From a virus: a DNA stretch of 21,762 bases. The notes under the pieces are model-generated. The model did no database searches and was not told where the DNA came from. It saw nothing but the letters and a program-made list of their open reading frames with translations. The DNA lies in IMG/VR virus record IMGVR_UViG_3300040816_000562, positions 1 to 21,762 of that record. One strand, 5' to 3'. Positions 2,629 through 7,947 of the stretch are shown here, in pieces (the stretch's first letter is position 1; the number at the start of each line of letters is the position of its first letter). A program made the translations under genes and the position numbers.

Positions 2629-2630
2629 TT
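2612..2630 (+). terminator. Weak terminator-like hairpin
   Basis: Stem GCCTA/TAGGC with an AAA loop, followed by CTTTTT on the plus strand. No plus-strand gene lies upstream, so a plus-strand role is unclear. Read on the minus strand it follows the PP-loop gene but has only a short T stretch after the stem, so termination there would be weak. Confidence 0.3.
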
Positions 2631-3711
2631 AAAAATCAAAAGAATATTGATTTATTTGTGTTGAGTTAGTATCAAGAACTAATTGATTGAATTCTATATA
2701 TAAATCTGTAATTAGTTGATCATATATGATGTTTCGACTTTGTCCATGTCTGCGTTTACCTTTCATAACTTGATTAAAAATTCTATTTTGTATAGAATTA
2801 ATATTTTTATCACGCATAGGTTTTCTATATAAGATATCAAATTGATTATAAACTCCAGATTCCATTGCTAAAATCTTTTTAAGTTTTTCAAAACCTGTTG
2901 TTTCGCTAATCTGAGGTAATAGGCCGTTTATTATGTTATTATAATATTGAAATTTAAAAAGATATTTGTTTTGTTTATACCTTGCTTCTGGCATATTATC
3001 ATCAAGTTTTTCAAAATGTATACCTTTATTTGTAACAACTTCTAAATTATTTTTATATGCACAGTAAACTGCTTCGGGCGAATGATAATAAACATCACGA
3101 ATACATTCTACATCTATGCTTTTGCAGAATAGATGATATGGCGCCATTATATCTTGATAAAAATTTTCACCTGACATCCTAATATTGTTATCTGAAGAAA
3201 AATTAGATTGATATTGCATTAACGGTGGGTCTCCTCCTAGTAGAATATGATCTATATTATATTTGGTTTTAAGTAATTCTATAAAATAGAAATGCACAGA
3301 TAGTTGAGGACTGCTGTTAAAAAACTTTTCTCCATATTTAAAATGCTGATTAGTATTAAAAAAATTGTTTAAATCTATATCTATAATGTGGTGCGATACA
3401 TTATACTTTTTGCATAAAAGTTCAGCAATGTATACATCATCCGTATTAAGATATATGCCATTCCAAGATGTTCTGTATGTAAAAGCAGTTATATTTTTAT
3501 TAAGTTTTAAACACATTAGAAGTGAAAATTGGCTATCTAATCCGCCACTTAATGCTAAATTTATATTAGATTTATTTGCTAATATCTTATTAACTTCTTC
3601 TAAAAGAGTACTAGTAGACGTTTTTGCAAAAGTTTTAACATAATGAGTTTCAGACATATCTATTTCTATGCCCGGAGGAGAGCCTAATGCTATCATATTA
3701 TCATTATTCAT
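2629..3711 (-). CDS. PP-loop ATP pyrophosphatase, asparagine-synthetase C-domain-like
   Basis: 360 residues. The P-loop-like motif SGGLDS at residues 55-60, inside INLALSGGLDSQFSLLMCLK, marks the ATP-pyrophosphatase fold of asparagine synthetase B and relatives. A later LLGGDPPLMQY stretch (about 157-167) sits where AsnB has its second conserved Gly/Asp loop. The N-terminal glutaminase domain is absent (only ~40 residues precede the P-loop region), so another amine donor or a free amine is expected. Known stand-alone relatives adenylate a carboxylate to form amides or lactams. The substrate here is unknown. A short AAGAAGAAG precedes the ATG. It is divergent from the S8 protease gene, with a 68-base shared intergenic region. 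Confidence 0.78.
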   Translation of the reverse strand: MNNDNMIALGSPPGIEIDMSETHYVKTFAKTSTSTLLEEVNKILANKSNINLALSGGLDSQFSLLMCLKLNKNITAFTYRTSWNGIYLNTDDVYIAELLCKKYNVSHHIIDIDLNNFFNTNQHFKYGEKFFNSSPQLSVHFYFIELLKTKYNIDHILLGGDPPLMQYQSNFSSDNNIRMSGENFYQDIMAPYHLFCKSIDVECIRDVYYHSPEAVYCAYKNNLEVVTNKGIHFEKLDDNMPEARYKQNKYLFKFQYYNNIINGLLPQISETTGFEKLKKILAMESGVYNQFDILYRKPMRDKNINSIQNRIFNQVMKGKRRHGQSRNIIYDQLITDLYIEFNQLVLDTNSTQINQYSFDF

Positions 3712-3730
3712 TTTAATACTTCTTCTTTTT

Positions 3731-3738
3731 GATAAATA
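3731..3738 (+). promoter_or_regulatory. Late promoter element (TGATAAATA) for the plus-strand island
   Basis: TTTGATAAATATAC on the plus strand, 41 bases before the protease ATG at 3780. It is the only copy found pointing in the plus direction at a gene start, which supports it as a functional site rather than chance. Confidence 0.6.
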
Positions 3739-3746
3739 TACAAGTA

Positions 3747-3775
3747 ATTATCGTATTAACTATTACAAAGGACAA
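3747..3775 (-). promoter_or_regulatory. Possible sigma70 promoter for the PP-loop gene
   Basis: TTGTCC (3775-3770) and GATAAT (3752-3747) on the minus strand with a 17-base spacer, 35 bases before the PP-loop ATG. Both boxes are imperfect and the region is A+T-rich, so chance is a fair alternative. Confidence 0.3.
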
Positions 3776-3779
3776 TTAT

Positions 3780-5285
3780 ATGGCAACTTACATTATTTCA
3801 TTAGACCCAACTGCATACACAGATAATGCCGATGGGGCAACAAGTATTACTGACGCAGGTGGTACTATAACAAAAACTTATAGTTTTCCGTTTACTTATA
3901 AAGTAGATATTGAAGAAGCAGAAATGGGCGTTTTAACCATTGCGGCATCTTCATTAGAAAGCGAATCTTTAACTGCTGAAGCAAGTTATAATATAGATCA
4001 TTTAAAGTATCTATCTAATGACGCAGGCTCTTTAGCAACTGCGTATAACCCTTCAAGCACTGGTGCTACAGAAAGTGTCTATCTCATAGATACTGGTGTA
4101 AATACTACTCATGATGAATTTACAGGTGCTACAGTAACAAATTTACATACTAATTTTAGTGATTATGCAGATGCATCAGGTCACGGAACAGGTATGGCTA
4201 GTTTAATAGTTGGTCAAAACATTGGTTCTGCACCTAATGGCACACTATTTAATGTAAAAGCATTAGATTCAGTCAGCACATCTGCTACAGTAGGTAGCAT
4301 GATAGATGCCTTAGATGCAATTCTTACACATCATAATGCTAATGTTCCTTCAAAAACAAAAACAGTATGTTGTTGTTGGACTACATCAAAAAATAATTTA
4401 TTAGATCTTAAGTTTGCAGAACTAGAAGATAACAACTTAATTGTGATTTGTGCGGCAGGTAATGACGGCCTTGATACCGACAATTACTCACCAGCAGGTT
4501 TAGATAGGGTTATGACTGTTGGATCACATAATTCAAGTTACGTTGTTGGTCCTTTTGGTGCTAATGCTACATTTGGAGCAGGTTCTGTAACTAACATAGG
4601 TGAAGAAGTTGATATATACACAATTGGTAGCGGTGTAAATATAGCAAGTAATTCAGCAAATTCAAGTTACGTTGATGCAAACGGTACAAGTATATCTACA
4701 GCCATTATTGCAGGTCTATCATTACAATACATCGATGCTTACCCAGATGCTTCTGCAAGAGTTATTAAATCATATATGACATCAGAAGGTTCGGTAGAAA
4801 ATAGAGGTGCTAACTTAACAGTTGATTCTAATCTACTTACTAGTGCCAATGTTTCTATAACAGGATTAAAAAAATCAGTAGGCGTAAGTCCACAGGTTGG
4901 TGATTTAGAACTTGCGTCTGTACCATCAGGTCTTGTTTTAGAAGTTGCCAACGGAGCAGTAGCAACTGCAAATGTTGAAATAAATTCATCTGCTAGTAAT
5001 GTTGAAGTACTTGCATTTAGTCCTACTCCACCATGGGTAACATGGAATAATTCAGGTTTAATAACTGCTAACACTCAGGCTAATTTTGCTAATGTAACAG
5101 TTCCAGGAAGATACCATTTTGCAGTTAAAGGAACTGTATCAGGTGTTACACTTGTTGAAGAATATTCAATCGGTGTATATCAAACTGATGCAAATGAATT
5201 AGATACATCAAGTGAATTCTATTACGATAGCGACAATGCAAGTTATGACCAAGTTGTAAACTTTAATGCAACTAAAGGAGAATAA
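3780..5285 (+). CDS. Subtilisin-like serine protease (peptidase S8)
   Basis: 501 residues from ATG 3780, which has AAAGGA 8 bases upstream; an in-frame TTG at 3729 lies within the promoter and is rejected. The catalytic triad is complete: Asp104 in YLIDTGVNTTHDEF, His135 in ASGHGTGMASLIVG, Ser304 in NGTSISTAIIAGL, with oxyanion Asn228 in ICAAGNDG. Residues 1-75 resemble a short inhibitor-type prodomain (TYIISLDP at the start). Residues from about 375 form beta-rich, Ig-like repeats. No signal peptide is present, so it acts in the cell or on the virion. An odd Cys triplet (197-199) replaces the usual strand sequence before the substrate-binding segment. Candidate roles are a structural/adhesin protease or maturation of a modified peptide. 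Confidence 0.9.
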   Translation: MATYIISLDPTAYTDNADGATSITDAGGTITKTYSFPFTYKVDIEEAEMGVLTIAASSLESESLTAEASYNIDHLKYLSNDAGSLATAYNPSSTGATESVYLIDTGVNTTHDEFTGATVTNLHTNFSDYADASGHGTGMASLIVGQNIGSAPNGTLFNVKALDSVSTSATVGSMIDALDAILTHHNANVPSKTKTVCCCWTTSKNNLLDLKFAELEDNNLIVICAAGNDGLDTDNYSPAGLDRVMTVGSHNSSYVVGPFGANATFGAGSVTNIGEEVDIYTIGSGVNIASNSANSSYVDANGTSISTAIIAGLSLQYIDAYPDASARVIKSYMTSEGSVENRGANLTVDSNLLTSANVSITGLKKSVGVSPQVGDLELASVPSGLVLEVANGAVATANVEINSSASNVEVLAFSPTPPWVTWNNSGLITANTQANFANVTVPGRYHFAVKGTVSGVTLVEEYSIGVYQTDANELDTSSEFYYDSDNASYDQVVNFNATKGE

Positions 5286-6240
5286 TAACCTTACTGTAGA
5301 TTTAACATCTAACAATAAGGTTTTTAATTGTTTGAGTCCACAAGGCTCTTGGATTTTTCATCGCTTTGGTAAAAGAGAATATCCTTTAATCGATATCGAC
5401 ATTTCAAAAATAAAAAATCTTATTGAGTCAAATAAAATTACTACAGTAAATTTTTATAGTATCTTCGGTGATACTTTAGCACACCCTGACTTCGAAGATA
5501 TATTTAACTTTTGCAAAGAAAAAACTATACCAGTACAAATCACAACAAACGGCTTTTACAACAATATATTAAATGCAGAGCATTCATCATACAGGGTCAA
5601 ACTTTACGGTTTTACTAAAACTATAAATGATATATTGTTCGATGAAGATATCGATACTCTTAAAGAAAATTTGTTACAAATGAAAAATCTTACTATAGAG
5701 TATCATTGCTACAAACATAATTTAATTGACTTACCTGAACTACTACAATTCTGTAAAGAAAATGATATTAAAATTTTATGTGTTCCAGGTGTATGCATTC
5801 ATGACGATATAAACCACGTAATAGATGTTCCAGGTAATTGGATGCATGATATAAATGGTATACAAAAAATGGACTTAGATTACTTATACAGTGAAATTAC
5901 AGAATTTGATAAAGCAATAGAATACTTTAAACAATTTAATGCTATAGAATTAAACAAATCAGTAATAGGATATCACGTTATAAAATTAGCAGTAGGAAAA
6001 CTTGAAGGTGAGGGAATTTTAGACACTAATTTATTAGACTTTAAAAAAGGTGAAATAGTAGATGAAGGATTACATATTACAGTTACTGGTCATATCTTAA
6101 ATAATTTTAAACAATTTGTAAATGTTTCTAGTGCTATCCCAAACGATTGGAAGTTTGAAAACTTTTCACTCAAAGACGACTTTCAATCTGATTTAGTTGC
6201 TGACTTATCTAACTTTACTAACAATAGAGTATACTTATAG
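5266..6240 (+). CDS. Radical-SAM-fold protein lacking the cluster cysteines
   Basis: 324 residues. The middle of the first half reads like a radical SAM barrel: VNFYSIFGDTLAHPDFEDIF matches the usual GGEP-x-LHPDF strand, and IPVQITTNGFYNN matches the following strand with its TTNG. However, the CX3CX2C loop that should lie near residues 22-30 is CLSPQGSWIF, with only one Cys, and the GGE motif is FGD. It therefore should not bind the 4Fe-4S/SAM centre and is probably a non-catalytic partner or pseudoenzyme. The ATG at 5266 overlaps the protease gene by 20 bases; a strong AAAGGAG sits just after it with no start codon following, so the start is not secure. It converges on the intact radical SAM gene with a 6-base overlap. 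Confidence 0.65.
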   Translation: MQLKENNNLTVDLTSNNKVFNCLSPQGSWIFHRFGKREYPLIDIDISKIKNLIESNKITTVNFYSIFGDTLAHPDFEDIFNFCKEKTIPVQITTNGFYNNILNAEHSSYRVKLYGFTKTINDILFDEDIDTLKENLLQMKNLTIEYHCYKHNLIDLPELLQFCKENDIKILCVPGVCIHDDINHVIDVPGNWMHDINGIQKMDLDYLYSEITEFDKAIEYFKQFNAIELNKSVIGYHVIKLAVGKLEGEGILDTNLLDFKKGEIVDEGLHITVTGHILNNFKQFVNVSSAIPNDWKFENFSLKDDFQSDLVADLSNFTNNRVYL

Positions 6241-7242
6241 CGACTTAGAAATTGCTATATCACTAATATTATTACAAAAGTCATAAGGACAAATTGTTTT
6301 AGTTTCAGGTAATCTCCACTCAGAATTATTTATATTTCCAAAGTTTACAGCACCACACCAACTGCTATAGATATCGCCTAATGCATCTATATTAATACTT
6401 TCAAAACCTAGATGGCATTTCATTCCGCGAAACTTATTAAGTCCTTGATCTATTATTTGATGACTTTGTACATATTTTGCAGTACCGTCATCATATAAAA
6501 ATTCTGTCATCCATGATTTAGGATCCGAAGGCTCTATGTTCTGTGTTTTTTCAGCAGGTTTAACTCCAGGACGCCTTAGTACGTCTAATTCGTTGTCTGT
6601 GTACTCCCAATATGTTTCCTGCTTACTGTTGCGACCTAGTAACTTCTTATACATGGTTTTAACACATATACTTACATGATCATAATTGTTATGTTTACAA
6701 TCTTTAAACAGATCACGCAAGGTGTCAACAAATATTCCTAATTCTTCTACTCTAGAACCTATCCCTGCTATATTAATATCTATTGTGACATACTCTTTTA
6801 TTTCATTAATAACATCTATAAAATGCTTTTTGTCTTGCGATAAAGGATGATATGTTAATACAACTCCGTCCATATAGTGCTTTGCTTTAGACCACCATTT
6901 GACTGTTCTACTTGCATTAGTATATACTGTACTACTTGAATTATACTCACTAATAGTTTTTATAATGTCTTCAAACCCAGGTATTACAGTTACTTCACCG
7001 CCTATTAATTCATAGTCTGTGCGTTTATCTAATGCGTTGTAGTGCGAAGATAGTCTTTTTATAGTGTCAATGTACTTATTTGTACTTAACCAAGGCTTAG
7101 AGCCATCGTGTAATTGAGGAGGGCAATAATCACAACTGTAATTACAGTTATTGCCCATATTCCATTGAATTCTTATTGCATTAGAATTATTTCTAATGTG
7201 CGGACCTTTTACTGATAAGAGGTTAGGACCCTCGTAAGACAT
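6235..7242 (-). CDS. Radical SAM enzyme with Cys-rich C-terminal domain
   Basis: 335 residues. CNYSCDYC gives Cys33, Cys37 and Cys40, the CX3CX2C ligands of the SAM-binding 4Fe-4S cluster, and LIGGEVTVIPGFEDII (Gly81-Gly82-Glu83) is the methionine-amino-group motif. Four further cysteines (276, 296, 318, 323) in the last 60 residues suggest an auxiliary cluster domain of Twitch/SPASM type, common in enzymes that modify peptides or proteins. The substrate is unknown. The start overlaps the PAAR gene by 20 bases and lacks a strong ribosome binding site, so it is likely coupled to PAAR translation. The 7Fe ferredoxin is a plausible electron donor. Confidence 0.85.
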   Translation of the reverse strand: MSYEGPNLLSVKGPHIRNNSNAIRIQWNMGNNCNYSCDYCPPQLHDGSKPWLSTNKYIDTIKRLSSHYNALDKRTDYELIGGEVTVIPGFEDIIKTISEYNSSSTVYTNASRTVKWWSKAKHYMDGVVLTYHPLSQDKKHFIDVINEIKEYVTIDINIAGIGSRVEELGIFVDTLRDLFKDCKHNNYDHVSICVKTMYKKLLGRNSKQETYWEYTDNELDVLRRPGVKPAEKTQNIEPSDPKSWMTEFLYDDGTAKYVQSHQIIDQGLNKFRGMKCHLGFESINIDALGDIYSSWCGAVNFGNINNSEWRLPETKTICPYDFCNNISDIAISKSL

Positions 7243-7639
7243 CTGAGACTGTACCTAAACTTTCCCCGGCACTACCTATAACTTCTGCGCCTCCAAATTG
7301 AAATGCAGTATTAGCCGCTCCCATTATGCCTATAATTTTTGCTAGTCCTGGACTGCTGATAGCAAAACCTACAAATACTGTTCCCATACCCATTAATGGG
7401 TGGCCACATGTAGCAGGTGTGCCGTTAAATGTAACACTTGCTTTTGCTTGATTAATTCCTGCTCTTACTGTAGGATTTCCTACTGGTAGTATTGCCGCGG
7501 CGTGTGGCGCCTCACCGTGTGTAAATACTACATCTTTTTCTATGCTAACTGGAGTACCGTCAGCGAATACAGTAGGTGCACCAGGACCTATTACTATTCC
7601 CTGAGCATTACTTTGTGTTACTTTTCCTATTACTGGCAT
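7223..7639 (-). CDS. PAAR-domain protein, tail-spike tip
   Basis: 138 residues in the Gly/Pro-rich short-strand pattern of PAAR proteins (T4 gp5.4 type): MPVIGKVTQSNAQGIVIGPG, then GAPTVFADG, VRAGINQAKASVTFNG and TPATCGHPLMGMG. PAAR proteins fold into a small cone that caps the gp5/VgrG spike and usually bind a metal through His/Cys; His66-type (CGHP) and His41-type (THGEAPH) residues are present here. The C-terminal ~45 residues are Gly/Ala-rich and extend past the cone. No ribosome binding site precedes the ATG; a GATAAATA late element ends 6 bases before it, so a leaderless late mRNA is likely. It overlaps the radical SAM gene downstream. Confidence 0.85.
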   Translation of the reverse strand: MPVIGKVTQSNAQGIVIGPGAPTVFADGTPVSIEKDVVFTHGEAPHAAAILPVGNPTVRAGINQAKASVTFNGTPATCGHPLMGMGTVFVGFAISSPGLAKIIGIMGAANTAFQFGGAEVIGSAGESLGTVSDVLRGS

Positions 7640-7644
7640 GTAAA

Positions 7645-7947
7645 CTATTTATCTGCCAATTCTTTAGAATCTTCCTCTACTACTGTATTATAGTCGTCTG
7701 CACTGGATGGCAAACTTTCTGTGATTGATAAAACATGTGATTTATCTATAAAAATTGTTGCAGACTTACTTGTAAAAGTATAAGGAATAACTGCAATCTG
7801 CTCATTTGTAACAACAACTAATTTTGGATGGTCTAAACAAATTGTATTGTTTGTATCATCATTGCTTATTAGTTGTGCTATTATTTCCATTCCTGATACT
7901 GTTTTTATAGTAACTATTTGTCCTAATAACTTATCTATTTCGTACAT
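7645..7947 (-). CDS. Small Sm-like beta-barrel protein, 100 residues
   Basis: MYEIDKLLGQIVTIKTVSG followed by MEIIAQLISND matches the start of an Sm/LSm fold (short helix, then strands carrying a Gly turn: G-x-x-V-x-I-x-T-x-x-G). Alternating strands continue to residue ~80, and the last 20 residues are acidic and disordered. Sm-like proteins usually form rings that bind RNA. The assignment is by pattern, not a decisive motif. The start overlaps the nrdB stop by one base (TAATG), so it is translationally coupled to ribonucleotide reductase. Its 3' end contains the late element that serves the PAAR gene. Confidence 0.5.
   Translation of the reverse strand: MYEIDKLLGQIVTIKTVSGMEIIAQLISNDDTNNTICLDHPKLVVVTNEQIAVIPYTFTSKSATIFIDKSHVLSITESLPSSADDYNTVVEEDSKELADK
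7646..7653 (-). promoter_or_regulatory. GATAAATA late promoter element 6 bases before the PAAR ATG
   Basis: The element overlaps the last codons and stop of the Sm-like gene. The PAAR ATG begins at 7639, so transcription would begin at or beside the start codon. It separates a late structural gene from the early-type nrd operon upstream. Confidence 0.6.

Follow-up and report, generated by a model that had tools for sequence, protein, structure and literature searches.

Among described systems, those closest to the gene block considered here are the SPASM/Twitch peptide maturases, enzymes of the asparagine-synthetase B fold, lasso-peptide clusters, and a few phage genes. The block lies in a 21.8-kb record of an uncultured virus (IMG/VR record IMGVR_UViG_3300040816_000562, positions 1 to 21,762, referred to below as the window), for which a search of 50,697 phage records gave no near match. 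It encodes a PP-loop ATP-dependent enzyme, a subtilisin-like protease of family S8, a protein with a radical S-adenosylmethionine (SAM) barrel that has lost its cysteine motif (the pseudo-radical-SAM protein), a radical SAM enzyme of putatively active type, and a PAAR-type spike-tip protein. SuiB and SkfB, SPASM/Twitch maturases of ribosomally synthesized and post-translationally modified peptides (RiPPs), resemble the active-type enzyme in its CX3CX2C motif and four auxiliary cysteines and share the barrel of the pseudo-radical-SAM protein, as whose best fold matches they were recovered; they differ in that the pseudo-enzyme here is without cluster cysteines and that a precursor gene was not recognised. 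The NCBIfam model STM4011 matched the active-type enzyme with 47.6 bits, far below its cut-off of 200. Carbapenam synthetase (CarA), beta-lactam synthetase, and the McjC class, all of the asparagine-synthetase B fold, share the invariant PP-loop SGGxDS, whereas the PP-loop enzyme here is without their glutaminase-like N-domain and is 11-13% identical to them. An analogy with lasso-peptide maturation, drawn in a first-pass annotation of this DNA, fails, because the B2 protein of lasso clusters is a transglutaminase-like cysteine protease, whereas the protease here is a serine subtilase, and because no precursor was recognised: the small open reading frames (ORFs) gave no family match, and no RiPP recognition element (RRE) model matched the proteins scanned.

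Phages offer two further comparisons. The S8 domain is shared with PHROG 3677 and a protein of Sinorhizobium phage Phosso, where it sits inside a much larger protein (an open frame of 1291 codons) in the tail gene region; the protein here, unlike that of Phosso, has about 500 amino acids and a lysine-tipped tail. No relative of the PP-loop enzyme or the pseudo-radical-SAM protein was found by profile in Phosso or PA5oct, genomes in which these searches had no positive control. TARA_ERS488813_N000010, a T4-like marine phage with about 12 radical SAM genes (PMC5332604), is alike in its T4-like type and its many radical SAM genes, and linkage of PAAR, S8, and PP-loop genes is not described in the available part of that source. 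Cultured phages gave no DNA match and no protein match for the radical SAM enzyme, the PP-loop enzyme, or the pseudo-radical-SAM protein, and matches to the S8 protein were generic only; relatives of the radical SAM and PP-loop enzymes were also absent from 84,980 bacterial and archaeal genomes. A literature search returned nothing on radical SAM enzymes together with PAAR proteins in phage maturation, nor on the combination of S8, PP-loop, and radical SAM proteins. The parts thus belong to known superfamilies, and their combination is without counterpart in the collections and literature searched.

To compare the block across relatives, loci were collected with alignments A1-A4 and the window proteins, and near copies were removed, which left 56 non-redundant loci reaching far enough; all were recruited via block members, so that lineage members having lost the whole block would escape notice. 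All five genes were present as the first-pass annotation had read them, by gene calls, motifs, and family scans, the last giving confirmation or weak support for each, and its descriptions of a glutaminase-less asparagine-synthetase-like enzyme, a subtilisin-like protease, a cysteine-less radical SAM-like protein, and an intact radical SAM enzyme with auxiliary cysteines were each upheld by the evidence given below. Starting at NrdB, the minus strand carries LSM-like, PAAR, and radical SAM in that order; S8 and pseudo-radical-SAM follow on the plus strand, convergent with them, and PP-loop comes last, again on the minus strand and divergent from S8. PAAR, pseudo-radical-SAM, S8, and PP-loop genes stand together in 56 of 56 loci, and the radical SAM gene accompanies them in 43. 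The choice of seed has no influence on this linkage: counting only loci with room on both sides, all of those recruited with the radical SAM (23), pseudo-radical-SAM (28), PP-loop (39), or S8 (29) protein keep the four genes. The four also remain together where the PAAR/pseudo-radical-SAM pair is inverted (L241, L255, L256, and L314). With four genes adjacent at every locus and all five at 43, their juxtaposition is not due to chance. The unit is the four-gene set, and the radical SAM gene is accessory, because 13 of 56 loci are without it while the rest stay. The expectation that the genes move as a block was therefore borne out for four of them and not for the radical SAM gene, which is not tied to PAAR as had been proposed, since the 13 loci keep PAAR.

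The timing of expression was read from the element GATAAATA, which precedes S8 in 54 of 56 loci (background about 1.3% per 120 nucleotides) and, exactly or as a close variant, precedes PAAR in 51; it precedes NrdB in none (expected rate 1-3%). In the longest relative, the 250,519-base contig G001 (locus L085), it stands before 43 of 220 genes, including genes read as sheath and portal. The placement of GATAAATA across the 56 loci and in G001 marks S8, the overlapping pseudo-radical-SAM gene (which starts at 5266, with S8 ending at 5285), and PAAR as late by promoter. The earlier suggestion of a late promoter for S8 and pseudo-radical-SAM thus stands, except that the element is not the exact T4 TATAAATA. 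The distance from the element to the ATG is exactly 13 bases at PAAR in 47 loci, and likewise at nine G001 genes; because of this spacing the late PAAR mRNA is probably leaderless, and those of the nine genes would be so too.

The pseudo-radical-SAM protein is so named because it keeps the radical SAM fold and a sub-cut-off Pfam match, whereas the CX3CX2C motif is absent from an alignment of 26 relatives. Its AlphaFold model (pLDDT 90) gave SuiB, including the form with the precursor SuiA, and SkfB as best Foldseek matches, and the PP-loop enzyme gave carbapenam synthetase first, followed closely by LarE and beta-lactam synthetase, all with modest TM-scores, mostly 0.3-0.5. Invariant in the 26 rows are D12, T14, Q26, R33, G35, R37, S65, G68, D69, N152, G175, W192, D195, G275, D294, and W295, and a GGE-like turn (FGD) is retained. 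From the predicted secondary structure, several of the invariant residues appear to lie where barrel strands reach their C-terminal ends or directly beyond, the region that binds SAM and substrate in radical SAM enzymes. Column 68 is W in 13 of 13 loci without the radical SAM gene and Y or H in 43 of 43 with it, and columns 114 and 121 track its absence similarly. The 13 loci form two groups on the pseudo-radical-SAM tree (a single clade is not rejected; approximately unbiased test, p 0.127), and in L135, a recent loss close to radical SAM-bearing relatives, the residue is as in those kin. Mapped on the NrdB tree, the presence and absence of the gene calls for three changes, of which well-supported branches force at least two as independent gains or losses; the recent deletion in L135 comes on top of these.

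For the radical SAM enzyme itself, C33, C37, and C40 of the CX3CX2C motif are invariant in 49 sequences, which suggests an enzyme of active type; its match to PF04055 (1.1e-6) scored 29.4 bits, just short of the 29.5 cut-off. The auxiliary cysteines C276, C296, C318, and C323 are also invariant and would suffice for one cluster, and no SPASM model reached its cut-off. In L184 (11105-13649) the slot between pseudo-radical-SAM and PAAR is filled by two other enzyme genes, judged by eye to be probable haem- or copper-dependent oxidoreductases. The PAAR protein carries the metal-ligand pattern H42, H47, and C76 (alignment columns) in 56 of 56 loci, with profile matches below their cut-offs (T6SS_PAAR 5.5e-4, Pfam PAAR_motif 0.02), and none of its residues convincingly tracks the presence of the radical SAM gene among these loci.

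In the PP-loop enzyme the motif SGGLDSQF occupies residues 55-62, and SGGxDSQ is invariant in 56 of 56 loci. Because only about 50 amino acids precede it, the protein is without an N-terminal glutaminase domain. Pfam Asn_synthase scored 19.1 bits on the window protein (cut-off 21) and E<=0.01 in 13 of 22 members (best 3.8e-7), which together with the motif places it with the synthetase domain of the AsnB-like family. The S8 protein matched Pfam Peptidase_S8 at 1.9e-19 in the window and PF00082 in 22 of 22 members, with a weak match to PatA/PatG; no Pfam match to an I9 propeptide was found at the N-terminus in those 22. Its catalytic D, H, and S and the oxyanion N are invariant in 56 of 56 loci, and its true start is the ATG given in Table 1, the ORF listing having begun at a TTG at 3729. 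Beyond a conserved YYD motif the protein ends in a hypervariable, lysine-poor tail of 19-44 residues. Lysine occupies position -1 from the C-terminus in 14 and -2 in 40 of the 56 loci, and is almost absent from the remainder of the last 30 residues. One of the last two residues is lysine in 51 of 56, versus 26% of the G001 proteome, a comparison for which the binomial figure ignores relatedness and is not a probability. In pairs less than 42% identical, both members have the terminal lysine in 80%, and identity over positions -3 to -10 is 9%.

Table 1. Coordinates of the block genes, promoter elements, and neighbouring small ORFs in the window
Feature	Position	Strand	Remarks
PP-loop ATP-dependent enzyme, asparagine-synthetase C-domain-like	2629..3711	-	360 aa
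S8 subtilisin-like protease	3780..5285	+	501 aa; no signal peptide apparent
Pseudo-radical-SAM protein	5266..6240	+	radical SAM barrel, cysteine motif lost
Radical SAM enzyme, putatively active type, accessory	6235..7242	-	CX3CX2C and four auxiliary cysteines
PAAR-type spike-tip protein	7223..7639	-	138 aa; most relatives have about 90 aa
Late-promoter element GATAAATA	3731..3738	+	49 bases upstream of S8 start
Late-promoter element GATAAATA	7646..7653	-	just before PAAR ATG
Small ORF, 50 aa	2341..2493	-	C-terminal half hydrophobic; of a family kept after the PP-loop gene
Small ORF, 40 aa	2219..2341	-	appears to be the same family as in 26 relatives, same place; matched by eye

Because the enzyme classes, the timing, the linkage to a spike tip, and the signal in the S8 tail agree, the best single reading of the block is a lineage-specific, late-acting module for the maturation of virion proteins, a reading that we hold tentatively. 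S8 and the pseudo-radical-SAM protein would be made from one late transcript during virion assembly, and a second late transcript, convergent with the first, would supply PAAR and, at loci that have it, the radical SAM enzyme. As a docking subunit without catalytic activity, the pseudo-radical-SAM barrel may then grip a segment of a protein, while the PP-loop enzyme would adenylate a carboxylate and so form an amide bond, the S8 protease would cut itself or a tail or spike partner, and the radical SAM enzyme, where present, could make a further modification. The likeliest substrates would be the virion-type members of the module, PAAR and the S8 protein, the flexible tail of the latter presenting its near-terminal lysine. 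We infer in this the joint action of the proteins, the order of the reactions, the substrate, and the place of S8 in the virion.

Several observations weigh against such a module. A precursor peptide was not recognised. The nrdA, nrdB, and LSM-like genes are as syntenic in this lineage as the block, and since the whole region is syntenic, adjacency is weak evidence for joint function. Distance residuals favour the module in that they correlate highest for pseudo-radical-SAM/S8 (0.45) and S8/PP-loop (0.39), but the LSM-like/PP-loop correlation (0.29-0.31) equals that of pseudo-radical-SAM/PP-loop (0.28-0.31); distance coevolution among the block proteins is modest and non-specific. GATAAATA precedes the PP-loop gene in none of the 56 loci, whereas its supposed partners have the late promoter, so that either this gene uses another promoter class or it is no partner in timing. 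Given the modest TM-scores, fold class alone is secure for the PP-loop enzyme and the pseudo-radical-SAM protein, and the covariation of the latter with the radical SAM gene might come from common origin or joint transfer or from convergence. The window S8 protein itself ends in KGE, with lysine at -3, and a clade of four phages is without the terminal lysine (tails ending GGL, SGL, or QGV); no matching change was found in the PP-loop enzymes of these four.

A maturation module is only slightly ahead of the alternative that the genes have separate jobs in a syntenic region. S8 would then be a protease of the virion or tail, cleaving at the host surface or in assembly, PAAR an ordinary spike tip, the PP-loop protein an auxiliary metabolic or nucleotide- or tRNA-modifying enzyme, and the radical SAM proteins drawn from the large stock of these phages. 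That the nrdA-nrdB-LSM-like order is conserved as well as the block fits this alternative, as do the 12 radical-SAM Pfam matches in G001, most of them distant from the locus, and the published precedent of 12 radical SAM genes in a marine genome of T4-like type (PMC5332604). The loss of the radical SAM gene from 13 of 56 loci with retention of the remainder points the same way, as does the jumbo phage Phosso, in which S8 lies in a tail-protein region and relatives of the other block genes went undetected. Separate jobs would leave unexplained, however, why S8, pseudo-radical-SAM, and PP-loop genes are unseparated in every relative examined while gene content immediately downstream changes freely, and why pseudo-radical-SAM residues covary with the presence of the radical SAM gene.

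It is unlikely that the block is a RiPP-like system, in which a small ORF would give rise to a modified peptide, with S8 as leader peptidase, the PP-loop enzyme as macrolactam synthetase, and the pseudo-radical-SAM protein as leader-binding component. The enzyme classes are compatible with such a system, by their fold matches and the PatA/PatG match of S8, and positions 1826-2493, following the PP-loop gene, hold a tight operon of tiny conserved ORFs, with families kept in 26 relatives each; a 24-amino acid member ends in KYWIAPWTPIPYK, and its KYWIxPW core recurs in relatives. These ORFs are real conserved genes, without family match; they are, however, mostly hydrophobic and resemble small membrane proteins, and neither a leader/core pattern nor an RRE or exporter was recognised. 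Two of the ORFs are found elsewhere than beside the block in L323/L325, and went undetected in many freshwater relatives that retain it. The first-pass annotation had proposed the small ORFs as substrates by position only, and because of this relocation they are weak candidates.

We regard as quite unlikely a spike conjugation system, in which the PP-loop ligase would join S8 through its tail-tip lysine to a virion partner such as PAAR and the dead radical SAM barrel would dock, its pocket adapted to whether an active radical SAM enzyme pre-modifies the docked segment. That S8 is the prohead maturation protease of the lineage, with the other genes aiding capsid maturation, would suit its late promoter and intact active site and is very improbable; it was rejected because G001 has a normal gp21 near gp23, about 100 kb from S8.

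Were the block to modify proteins of the spike or tail, it would represent a post-translational maturation system dedicated to the injection device of a phage; a function would follow for a dead radical SAM protein that selection retains, and expression of four or five small genes would put ATP-dependent amide bonds in phage tail maturation to a direct test. The lineage appears common in fresh and salt water, and no cultured member was found in the collections searched. Its known members are many metagenome-derived virus contigs, which contig groups and gene content suggest to be marine and freshwater. The window is part of the genome of a large uncultured phage of T4-like type, because G001 encodes the T4 capsid protein gp23 (Gp23 2.9e-81), for which Pseudomonas phage PA5oct and kin have the nearest cultured capsid (69% identity), and the T4 prohead protease gp21 (Peptidase_S77, 3.3e-27); these features and the T4-type late promoters were found in G001 and not in the window fragment itself.

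Three further observations concern neighbouring genes. Positions 133,638-152,348 of G001 are a single 6,236-codon open frame, presumably for a giant structural protein, and a run of radical SAM genes lies near probable fibre genes at 162,000-177,000. In the window, 1435-1773 encodes a ferredoxin of PHROG 8732 that is kept near the block in many relatives and was not found beside it in the radical SAM-lacking relatives examined; it may donate electrons to the radical SAM enzyme.

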